Shown: in pieces, positions 54,694-56,900 of the stretch | Layout of the letters: every line of letters starts with the position of its first letter | How positions within the stretch are numbered: the first letter of the stretch is position 1 | Origin: Rosettibacter firmus | GTDB lineage: Bacteria; Bacteroidota; Ignavibacteria; Ignavibacteriales; Melioribacteraceae | NCBI RefSeq assembly: GCF_036860695.1 | Contig: NZ_JAYKGJ010000001.1 | Location: 434,001 to 498,000, forward strand | Reading direction: 5' to 3' | Length of the DNA: 64,000 nucleotides | Translations under genes and position numbers: made by a program | The notes under the pieces: generated by a model | Seen by the model: the letters and a program-made list of their open reading frames with translations, nothing else | Told to the model about the DNA's origin: nothing | The model's database searches: none

Positions 54694-55344
54694 TTAATTA
54701 GTTGTTAGTTTACATGAAGGACAATATTTACAAATTACACACTGTTCGCATTTAGGTCTACGAGCAATACAAACTTTTCTTCCATGTAGTATTAAAAGAT
54801 TTGAAGAAGCAATCCAGTATTTTTCAGGGAGTAACTCTCTTAATCTTAGTTCAATTTTAAGTGGATCTGATGTATTAACAAAACCCAGTAAATTTGTTAA
54901 TCTTGTTACATGTGTATCTACTGCAATTGAAGGAATATTAAATGCATTACCTGCTACTACAGATGCAGTTTTTCTGCCAACTCCTGGTAGTTTACAAAGT
55001 TCTTCAAAGTTATCAGGAACTTTACCATTATATTTATCTACAAGTGCAGTACAACATTTTATTATGCTTTTAGCTTTTTGTTTATAAAAGCCAGTTGAAT
55101 AAATATCTTTTTCTAACTCTTCGGGAGGAATTGATAAAAAGTCCTGTGGTTTCTTATATTTTTTAAATAAATCTTTTGTGACCAAATTTACTCTTTCATC
55201 AGTACATTGTGCAGAAAGAATTGTAGCAATTAATAATTGAAATGGATTAGAATAATTAAGTGCTGTTTTAGGTTCTGGATATTCTTTTAATAGAATATTG
55301 ATAATTTTAGCAATACGTTTTTTATCTTCTGCAAGATTATTCAT
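54694..55344 (-). CDS. nth: Endonuclease III
   Basis: This 216-aa protein has the normal length. The bifunctional glycosylase/AP lyase removes oxidised pyrimidines. Seen here: NPFQLLIATILSAQCTDERV, the helix-hairpin-helix CKLPGVGRKTASVVAGNAFN (catalytic lysine in GRKTA), IAVDTHVTRLTNLLG with the catalytic aspartate, and a [4Fe-4S] loop C-x6-C-x2-C-x5-C in VCIARRPKCEQCVICKYC. It lies 9 bp upstream of the HD gene and just downstream of the tRNA-Glu unit. Confidence 0.97.
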   Translation of the reverse strand: MNNLAEDKKRIAKIINILLKEYPEPKTALNYSNPFQLLIATILSAQCTDERVNLVTKDLFKKYKKPQDFLSIPPEELEKDIYSTGFYKQKAKSIIKCCTALVDKYNGKVPDNFEELCKLPGVGRKTASVVAGNAFNIPSIAVDTHVTRLTNLLGFVNTSDPLKIELRLRELLPEKYWIASSNLLILHGRKVCIARRPKCEQCVICKYCPSCKLTTN

Positions 55345-55359
55345 AATAATGAAAATAAT

Positions 55360-55436
55360 TGGTAGCGCATACGGGATTCGAACCCGTGATCTCCGCCTTG
55401 AGAGGGCGGCGTCCTAAGCCACTAGACGAATGCGCC
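55360..55436 (-). tRNA. tRNA-Glu, anticodon CTC
   Basis: Full cloverleaf on the minus strand: acceptor GGCGCAT/ATGCGCT with a G-U end pair, D-arm with GTCTAGTGGCTTAGGAC, anticodon stem CCGCC/GGCGG around the loop CTCTCAA (anticodon CTC, reading GAG), and T-arm ACGGG-TTCGAAT-CCCGT. Discriminator A is followed by encoded CCA. All stems pair well, so this is the functional copy. It is 17 bp downstream of the GIY-YIG gene. Confidence 0.95.
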
Positions 55437-55453
55437 ATTTATTAAAAAACAAA

Positions 55454-55696
55454 TTAAATAATTTTATTCTCTTTTAGCCAACGATATCCTTCTACCGTCT
55501 TAAAATATTTTTCTCTCCGCATTGCTTCTTTTCTTGTTTCATACATTTCATAATAATGTATTTCATATGGCATATGACCCTTCGTATACCGTATCTTCCC
55601 TGCATTGTGGTACTTTATTCTTTTCTGTAGATTATTGGTCGAACCGTAATAATAAGTCCCGTCTTTTTTACTCTTTAATATATATGCATAAAACAT
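55454..55696 (-). CDS. Small stand-alone GIY-YIG endonuclease
   Basis: This encodes 80 aa that are almost entirely one GIY-YIG domain: YAYILKSKKDGTYYYGSTNN carries the two motif strands (YAY and YYG), LQKRIKYHNAGK the catalytic arginine, and ETRKEAMRREKYFKTVEGYR the conserved glutamate-containing helix. Such single-domain proteins (UPF0213/SLX1-like) are frequent and multicopy in Bacteroidota; some behave as selfish nucleases. The gene is wedged between the interrupted tRNA-Glu copy (21 bp upstream) and the intact tRNA-Glu (17 bp downstream), and probably shares their transcript. A weak SD is present. Confidence 0.88.
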   Translation of the reverse strand: MFYAYILKSKKDGTYYYGSTNNLQKRIKYHNAGKIRYTKGHMPYEIHYYEMYETRKEAMRREKYFKTVEGYRWLKENKII

Positions 55697-55717
55697 TTTA
55701 CAAGTCTCTTATTACCA

Positions 55718-55818
55718 AGCGCATACGGGATTCTTCCATTGGAATCCCTTTGGGAGAACCCGTGATCTCCGTCCCGACATTGTCGGAGCGGCGTCCTAAG
55801 CCACTAGACGAATGCGCC
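55718..55818 (-). pseudogene. tRNA-Glu copy interrupted by palindromic insertions in anticodon and T loops
   Basis: This 101-bp stretch matches the 73-bp tRNA-Glu body base for base in acceptor, D-arm and most of the T-arm, but has two changes. In the anticodon arm 10 bases of the intact gene are replaced by a 16-base palindromic block (55772-55787) carrying CCGAC-ATT-GTCGG, which removes the anticodon. In the T-loop a 22-base insertion (55734-55755) splits TTC from GAA. It consists of two 11-base hairpins, TTCC-ATT-GGAA and TCCC-TTT-GGGA. No CCA is encoded after the acceptor. It cannot act as tRNA-Glu. The GIY-YIG gene begins 21 bp downstream. Confidence 0.85.
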
Positions 55819-55952
55819 ATAAAAAACTTAATTACATTAAGATATTGTTTTATTCTACCACAAAGTTTAAAAAAATTCAACAACAATTTTGATTTAATAT
55901 TTACAATTCAAAAATAGAATTACAAATCTCTAATATCAATTATAAAAAAATT

Positions 55953-56900
55953 TTATAATCCCATTTCTTCCAGCAATGCTGAGATTTTATTTACATCTTC
56001 TTCATCTAATTGATAATCATCTGCATTAATATTTTCAAGTACCTGCTGACTATTTCTAGCTCCAACAATTGCTGCAGTTACTGCTTTATTTCTTAGAACC
56101 CATGCAACAGCAAGATTTCCTACTGTTTTATTTGCTTTTGCAGCAATTGGTCTAAGTTTTTCTACAAATTCGAGTGCTTTTGAAAGAAATGGTTCCTGGA
56201 ACATTCTATTTTTTCTTCGCCAATCGTCTTCTGCAACTTTACTCATATCAAATTTACCTGTAAGTAAACCAGCTTGCATTGGGCTATAAACAACAACTCC
56301 AATTTCATTTTTCAAACAATAAGGTAATATTTCTTTTTCGATATCTCTACGCAATAAACTATATGGTGGCTGAAGCGATTGTACATGTTTAATTTTCATA
56401 CATCTTTCAAGTAAAGGTACATCAAAATTACAAACACCAATATATCTTACTTTACCTTCCTCCTGTAATTGAATCATAGTTCCCCAAGAATCTTCAACAG
56501 GAGTATTTGGATCAGGCCAGTGAAATTGATATAAATCGATATAGTCTGTTTGTAATCTTCTCAAACTATCTTCAATTTCTTTTCTAATACTATCTGGTTT
56601 TAAGTTTACAACTGCATTACCTTTACCATCGTTGATCATTCCACATTTTGTTGCAATAAATACTTCTTCACGAATTCCTTTTATTGCTTTCCCAACAACT
56701 TCTTCCGAATGACCAAATCCATAAACGGCAGCAGTATCTATCCAGTTAATTCCTTTATCTAATGCTGTATGAATTGCTTTTATAGATTCCTCATCATCCA
56801 CTTTTCCCCAACCGTATTGCCATGGACCTCCAATAGCCCATGCACCAAAACCAATAGTAGTAATAAAAGGACCATTTTTACCTAATTGACGTGTATTCAT
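55953..56900 (-). CDS. Aldo/keto reductase
   Basis: This encodes 315 aa with TGGAG before the ATG. It is a TIM-barrel oxidoreductase using NADPH. Motifs: FITTIGFGAWAIGGPWQYGW, GINWIDTAAVYGFGHSEEVV with catalytic Asp and Tyr, EVFIATKCGM with Lys, and DYIDLYQFHWPDPNTPVEDS with the catalytic His. IGVVVYSPMQAGLLTGKFDM and the VGARNSQQVLENINA cofactor loop complete the fold. Substrate cannot be deduced. It is a single gene between tRNA genes. Confidence 0.94.
   Translation of the reverse strand: MNTRQLGKNGPFITTIGFGAWAIGGPWQYGWGKVDDEESIKAIHTALDKGINWIDTAAVYGFGHSEEVVGKAIKGIREEVFIATKCGMINDGKGNAVVNLKPDSIRKEIEDSLRRLQTDYIDLYQFHWPDPNTPVEDSWGTMIQLQEEGKVRYIGVCNFDVPLLERCMKIKHVQSLQPPYSLLRRDIEKEILPYCLKNEIGVVVYSPMQAGLLTGKFDMSKVAEDDWRRKNRMFQEPFLSKALEFVEKLRPIAAKANKTVGNLAVAWVLRNKAVTAAIVGARNSQQVLENINADDYQLDEEDVNKISALLEEMGL

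Follow-up and report, generated by a model that had tools for sequence, protein, structure and literature searches.

Why should a nuclease gene of only 80 codons lie between two copies of the same tRNA gene, one intact and the other interrupted? The locus that raises this question is part of a 64-kb window (the whole stretch of DNA that was analyzed), and a preliminary description had suggested that it represents a compact mobile unit. Sister genomes, homologues at other tRNA genes, and empty sites in Flavobacterium support that suggestion, and we consider the region to be one copy of a minimal mobile element specialized on tRNA genes and made up of a tRNA-derived segment and a nuclease gene ~80 codons long, with a probability of roughly 0.6. 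Two properties go beyond what had been described: the tRNA loops are interrupted by structured hairpins that are specific to the lineage, and the intact copy is not the same one of the two at every locus.

Read on the minus strand from 55818 to 55360, the order is a broken tRNA-Glu copy, an 80-codon open reading frame (ORF), and an intact tRNA-Glu(CUC) (Table 1), which confirms the earlier account by means of ARAGORN, Rfam, and PF01541. Its gap sizes on the two sides of the nuclease gene (21 and 17 bp) were also correct, as was its statement that the flanks beyond the tRNA bodies do not match (31 of 50 positions identical versus a shuffled mean of 27, i.e. no real match). The only ORF separating the two tRNA copies encodes the 80-aa GIY-YIG protein; an integrase or recombinase is absent. 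Neither ARAGORN nor Rfam called the broken copy (55718-55818) as a tRNA. It retains three blocks of 30, 15, and 16 nt (55789-55818, 55756-55770, and 55718-55733; 61 nt in total), all 100% identical to the intact tRNA-Glu(CUC). The anticodon is lost, 18 nt having been swapped for 12 nt, and the T-loop is split between C56 and G57 (GGGTTC^GAATCCC) by a 22-nt double hairpin that reads TCCC-AAA-GGGA/TTCC-AAT-GGAA on the minus strand, that is, a 4-bp stem with a 3-nt loop, twice. This is the sole instance in the window, and ten shuffles gave none. A candidate promoter upstream of the broken copy could possibly drive the broken copy, the nuclease gene, and the intact tRNA as a single unit.

Table 1. 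Features of the tRNA-Glu/GIY-YIG locus and its flanks (window coordinates).
Feature	Position	Strand	Evidence or remark
Endonuclease III gene nth; syntenic flank, outside the element	54694..55344	-	
Intact tRNA-Glu(CUC), CCA encoded at its end	55360..55436	-	ARAGORN; Rfam RF00005, 65.7 bits
Stand-alone 80-aa GIY-YIG nuclease gene, Slx1-like (UPF0213/YhbQ/YazA branch)	55454..55696	-	PF01541, E 1.2e-15
Broken tRNA-Glu copy	55718..55818	-	Direct comparison with the intact copy
22-nt double hairpin in the T-loop	55734..55755	.	Only one in the window
Hairpin segment CTCCGACAATGTCGGGAC, 18 nt, substituted for 12 nt of the anticodon arm	55771..55788	-	Copy-versus-copy comparison; fold
Candidate promoter TTGAAT-17-TGxTAGAAT, upstream of the broken copy	55852..55880	-	Consensus match only; not above chance frequency in the region
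Aldo/keto reductase gene; flank syntenic in G001 and G002, outside the element	55953..56900	-	

Comparison of the same locus in two congeners of the window genome (G000) revealed one occupied site (G001) and one empty site (G002). In G002, the reductase gene, one intact tRNA-Glu, and nth follow one another with no nuclease gene. G001 carries a nuclease 75% identical to that of the window in the order intact tRNA, 3' partial copy with a double hairpin, nuclease, and full-length copy with a double hairpin. The order is thus swapped relative to G000, with the intact tRNA upstream and the full-length broken copy downstream of the nuclease. A fixed arrangement shared by all relatives, which would have spoken for plain vertical inheritance, is therefore not what these genomes contain. 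The encoded CCA noted previously does end the intact tRNA-Glu of the window; it is not conserved in G001 and G002. At one tRNA position, the copies in G000 and in G001 each carry the base of their own species (GGCTTAGG versus GGTTTAGG), so that either they originated at the site itself or conversion keeps them alike. Import of the tRNA part is less compatible with these bases than is in-place duplication or conversion. Since one congener carries the element at the same locus and a large number of independent genomes, some of them from isolates, share the architecture, an assembly artefact, which the preliminary description had named as a possible undoing, was ruled out.

The window nuclease consists of a GIY-YIG domain (PF01541, E 1.2e-15), and its AlphaFold model has a pLDDT of 95.5. 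In a Foldseek search, the predicted fold came closest to 1zg2, a bacterial Slx1-like protein, followed by Slx1-Slx4, with lower scores for I-TevI and UvrC; 1zg2 is the top match by sequence as well as by structure. The catalytic residues Y5, Y16, R26, H30, and E62 are conserved at no less than 97%. The dN/dS ratio lies between 0.055 and 0.31 in the five nuclease pairs with usable dS, which points to purifying selection, and one near-identical pair gave 0.7 on few changes. NCBIfam contained no match for the window protein. A PADLOC search for defense systems likewise returned no match, and the idea of a defense system was dropped for that reason.

The association of this nuclease with tRNA genes extends far beyond one locus. 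The window genome itself has four more nuclease loci, located 10 to 25 bp after tRNA-Leu, Ser, Cys, and Pro, the Ser locus having two copies. Two censuses based on GIY-YIG family searches were carried out. In five well-assembled relatives, where only retrievable loci were checked, 26 of 43 small GIY-YIG genes lay within 640 bp of a tRNA gene in the same direction (long ones, 0 of 4), and in nine genomes of other groups 22 of 44 sampled small genes lay by a tRNA (long ones, 0 of 3); by our own estimate, chance linkage would be about 1%. Across the 14 genomes, no small GIY-YIG gene had an antisense tRNA only, and long GIY-YIG frames were linked in 0 of 7 cases. A search with a query alignment retrieved 79 database loci, most of them with a nearby same-strand tRNA, spanning Bacteroidota, Ignavibacteria, and Calditrichota, together with single records labeled Verrucomicrobia, Zixibacteria, Omnitrophota, Nitrospirae, Cloacimonadota, and Patescibacteria, labels that derive from metagenome bins. 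The expectation that homologues would be found beside other tRNAs was thus borne out for Ser, Arg, Cys, Pro, Leu, Asp, Asn, Lys, Val, Met, Ala, Gln, Tyr, and Ile. At two loci (L184 and L192), nuclease genes were observed behind four tRNA-Asp or four tRNA-Val genes in a row. Phage and plasmid collections yielded seven and three weak matches, respectively, and only one viral contig contained a relative (L290, with tRNA-Lys close downstream of the nuclease); with matches so few and weak, carriage by phages or plasmids was dropped.

In a tree of 148 small GIY-YIG proteins, built on 85 columns and weakly resolved, 24 proteins fell into one well supported clade (SH-aLRT 98) with no member near a tRNA gene. 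In contrast to this sister clade (0/24), 107 of the 124 subfamily members adjoin same-strand tRNA genes of about 15 isotypes. Among the 17 exceptions, nine lie no more than ~220 bp from the end of a contig, and L096 was scored as lacking a tRNA because the tRNA finder missed two tRNA-Ser copies owing to a run of N; Rfam detected nothing beside the nuclease loci without tRNA. Isotypes cluster on the nuclease tree yet switch often (25 changes versus a shuffled mean of 54.5), and the lineage of the window nuclease, which otherwise sits at tRNA-Ser, has moved to tRNA-Glu. Two loci devoid of tRNA have repeats of their own: a small GIY-YIG gene of the sister clade (L007) lies amid dispersed repeats of the type TCATTCTGA...GAATCT, and another nuclease gene (L123, 2063-3304) has arrays of 8-nt repeats such as TGTGACTC on its flanks.

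A site that is empty in some genomes and occupied in others, as exemplified by G002 and G001, was also found in Flavobacterium, in agreement with what had been predicted for a mobile unit. Downstream of yqeY, 25 of the 28 readable species have a single tRNA-Arg(TCG) and no nuclease, versus several syntenic sites that are occupied (L208, L222, and L226; likewise L105, L120, L124, and L125). Occupied sites contain the 5' part of the tRNA up to the anticodon loop, split by a palindrome, then the nuclease and the intact tRNA, or the reversed order. Some of the empty sites may also be losses. Tandem units, each made up of a nuclease gene and a broken tRNA piece, are present as three near-identical 289-bp copies after tRNA-Leu (G064), as three copies before tRNA-Arg (L115), and as three 350-bp copies after tRNA-Val (G083). 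Two contigs of the last genome (C6 and C8; L238 and L239) both end in identical three-unit nuclease arrays, which are probably one longer array collapsed in assembly.

At most loci, the tRNA is present again, in full or in part, on the far side of the nuclease gene, with retained blocks that are mostly 100% identical. We looked for a fixed insertion point in the tRNA and found none; because the endpoints of the broken copies vary, a single insertion site is not definable, and no constant att core occurs at one tRNA position. With the integrase absent and the endpoints variable, an ordinary tRNA-integrating element was ruled out. The host flank upstream of the tRNA is also duplicated at 8 of the 31 testable loci, too few for flank duplication to serve as a general explanation. 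The interruptions mostly lie at loops: 48 of 57 distinct exact junctions (43 loci) touch the D-, anticodon, or T-loop, where ~29% would be expected by length. The corresponding p-value of 1e-17 is too strong since the loci are related; the trend is plain nonetheless. Of the inserts in broken copies, 34 of 68 are exactly 22 nt long.

Double hairpins are constrained in structure rather than in sequence. Among 31 of them, the named structure is paired in 92.7% of cells versus 74.8% in shuffles, with 39 two-sided changes versus 8.4 in shuffles (0/500), which means that the stem sequences vary by locus while complementarity is kept. They occur at 0.57 per kb near the nuclease versus 0.018 per kb further away. 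In 352 kb of scanned loci, 45 lay near the nuclease and 3 elsewhere, and REP-like dispersed repeats were rejected as their source on these counts. The presence and type of hairpin track the nuclease phylogeny (9 changes versus 29). Double hairpins are found at all six Glu loci and, among other isotypes, at Ser only. The Arg(TCG) lineage mostly has one palindrome of 16-24 nt at the D-loop edge, and in 126 kb the Flavobacterium palindrome turned up only in tRNA copies that are broken. In the Cys lineage, a hairpin takes the place of the segment from the anticodon to the T-arm, with stems that differ among genera yet stay complementary. Hairpins were also seen in two other settings. The window genome has tandem 3' pieces of tRNA-Glu(UUC), tRNA-Arg(ACG), and tRNA-Val(UAC) that are free of nuclease and carry the same T-loop double hairpin (L010 1300-2100, L011 1366-1534, and L288; C1:757682-760720, C1:295623-298656, and C2:370600-372200); these are possibly remnants or non-autonomous copies. 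At L004 (~1501-1743), a nuclease gene after tRNA-Cys has an in-frame hairpin-like insert, TCCCTGGGAATCCATCCCTTTGGGAGCA, which resembles the double hairpins of the tRNA copies.

Taken together, the empty and occupied versions of one site (G002 versus G000 and G001; Flavobacterium), the tRNA linkage, the second copies, the loop-placed and lineage-bound inserts, the identical tandem units, the purifying selection, and the Slx1-like structure argue for a mobile element, and we infer the following route for its movement. The Slx1-like GIY-YIG nuclease would cut or nick an unoccupied tRNA gene, and repair would copy the nuclease gene in and duplicate the tRNA, with the tRNA stretches on either side acting as homology arms. 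As the duplication and the restored tRNA indicate, the host would retain a working tRNA after insertion, and the nuclease would then be flanked by one intact and one disabled copy. The hairpins of the lineage, whose loop placement and covariation are given above, remove the anticodon or T-loop of the spare copy and would probably block re-cutting, tRNA activity, or recombination with the intact copy that would delete the nuclease. The gene is oriented in the tRNA sense and would probably be read off the tRNA promoter. Fresh breaks between the repeats may have given rise to the observed tandem arrays and to the swap of the intact copy. Since Slx1-type enzymes have branched DNA as their substrate (PMC7017083), a role for cruciforms at the tRNA arms or hairpins would be attractive. 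Several points count against this reading or parts of it. The intact tRNA, the presumed target, is still beside the nuclease, which leaves self-protection unaccounted for; the broken copies have variable endpoints; empty sites may reflect loss; the tree is weakly resolved; and the 8/31 flank duplications together with the species-own base in both copies speak against import of the tRNA part. We hold only tentatively, at slightly below even odds, the fuller proposition of an autonomous element of <0.5 kb in which a structure-specific 80-residue nuclease and a hairpin-armored tRNA copy spread together through tRNA genes in many bacteria and the hairpins function in mobility or self-protection.

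The position of the inserts invites a different explanation, namely that mobility resides in the hairpins themselves, with the GIY-YIG protein as a structure-specific mobilizer that opens DNA hairpin loops and inserts small hairpins into them, as in REP/RAYT systems, with tRNA arms extruded as cruciforms as its preferred targets. Inserts at the apical loops of tRNA arms (48/57), a nuclease from the Slx1 branched-DNA branch, hairpin types that follow the nuclease lineage, the nuclease-free T-loop double hairpins of L010, L011, and L288, and the similar insert inside the nuclease ORF of L004 would all be in keeping with it. We consider it unlikely, given that the hairpins, unlike REP families, are not dispersed, being almost absent away from nuclease loci, and that each locus has a stem sequence of its own instead of copies of one master. 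It is distinctly unlikely that the nuclease performs a domesticated host function, maturing or controlling tRNA or tRNA gene copy number and retained near tRNA genes through selection, with the broken copies as regulatory RNA or decoys: one would expect more constancy of such a function than the patchiness at syntenic sites, the many isotypes, the identical arrays, and the order swapped between congeners suggest, even though the nuclease is always sense to the tRNA and very close to it, is under purifying selection, and is accompanied by covarying hairpins that imply a conserved structure.

An addiction module of the toxin-antitoxin type, in which tRNA or its genes are the target of the nuclease and the copy with the hairpins serves as a protective decoy, would explain why the anticodon or T-loop of the copy is destroyed and the remainder is identical; co-transcription of the unit would agree with it weakly. 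The fold is that of a DNA nuclease, however, PADLOC had no match, and an intact tRNA gene is always adjacent, which makes such a module very improbable. Least credible of all is a neutral origin, with tandem tRNA duplications trapping the nuclease gene by chance and hairpins left as repair scars in decaying sequence. The flank duplications at 8/31 loci and the variable endpoints can be cited in its favor; tRNA linkage far above chance, recurrence across phyla, inserts of constant length and position, and the identity that broken copies otherwise keep with the intact tRNA disfavor it.

If the mobile-element reading is true, the element would be among the smallest autonomous mobile elements known. 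It would reside, several times per genome, in tRNA genes that are essential to their hosts in Bacteroidota, Ignavibacteria, Calditrichota, and further phyla, and would have escaped notice because its gene resembles an ordinary small nuclease. It would illustrate how a parasite can keep its host alive even though a universally conserved gene provides its landing site, its homology arm, and its promoter. It would also account for odd partial tRNA genes in annotations and assign a function to numerous Slx1-like proteins that are still unplaced, and it would be a natural example of structure-coded DNA hairpins that go with one nuclease lineage.

In the open-access literature, we found no prior description of such an element, and its recurrence beside many different tRNA genes in several phyla points to a very small type of mobile element that has apparently gone undescribed. 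We rate the class as new because the defining features of each neighboring family were absent or could not be shown; the enzyme fold is already known. The protein shares the fold and the domain-only size of UPF0213 (YhbQ, YazA), with GIY-YIG catalytic residues and an Slx1-type fold. The prokaryotic Slx1-like family has been described as repair-related and vertically inherited (PMC1564403), and the sister clade in our tree differs in having no tRNA linkage (0/24). Integrase-borne elements with tRNA attachment sites leave an intact and a partial tRNA copy (PMC9897764); the target and the two copies are alike here, whereas the present unit has no integrase or other gene, measures <0.5 kb, and shows loop hairpins and tandem arrays. 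The Allomyces mitochondrial double-hairpin elements and the repetitive hairpin elements of sponges consist of two adjacent short hairpins, some of them inside structural RNA genes (PMC2800124). Adjacent hairpins of this kind occur here in the Ser and Glu lineage only, and, unlike those dispersed and nuclease-free elements, the present hairpins are limited to the broken tRNA copies and go with the lineage of the nuclease. REP/REPIN sequences with RAYT also couple short palindromes to a small nuclease gene; in our case the protein is a GIY-YIG nuclease instead of a tyrosine (IS200/IS605-type) transposase, the palindromes are not dispersed, and the stems differ by locus.

The closest parallel is found in free-standing homing endonucleases, whose genes, as here, are present or absent at homologous sites. 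Insertion of such a gene abolishes or displaces the site that the enzyme recognizes; at the present locus, one tRNA copy is broken and an intact tRNA stays adjacent. Site-specific double-strand cleavage and super-Mendelian inheritance are further hallmarks of these endonucleases. SegB of T-even phages is a free-standing GIY-YIG homing endonuclease whose gene lies beside tRNA genes, is thought to cut in tRNA-containing DNA, and drives tandem amplification of the tRNA-nuclease segment (PMC13096335). The present loci resemble it in the GIY-YIG gene beside tRNA genes and in tandem amplification with the tRNA. SegB is phage-borne, whereas the present element lies in chromosomes and has almost no matches in viral and plasmid collections, and its cassette comprises an 80-aa Slx1-like domain alone plus a hairpin-broken tRNA copy. 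On the best reading, the element would work in the manner of SegB and other free-standing homing endonucleases, differing in the branch of its nuclease and in a tRNA copy disabled by hairpins.
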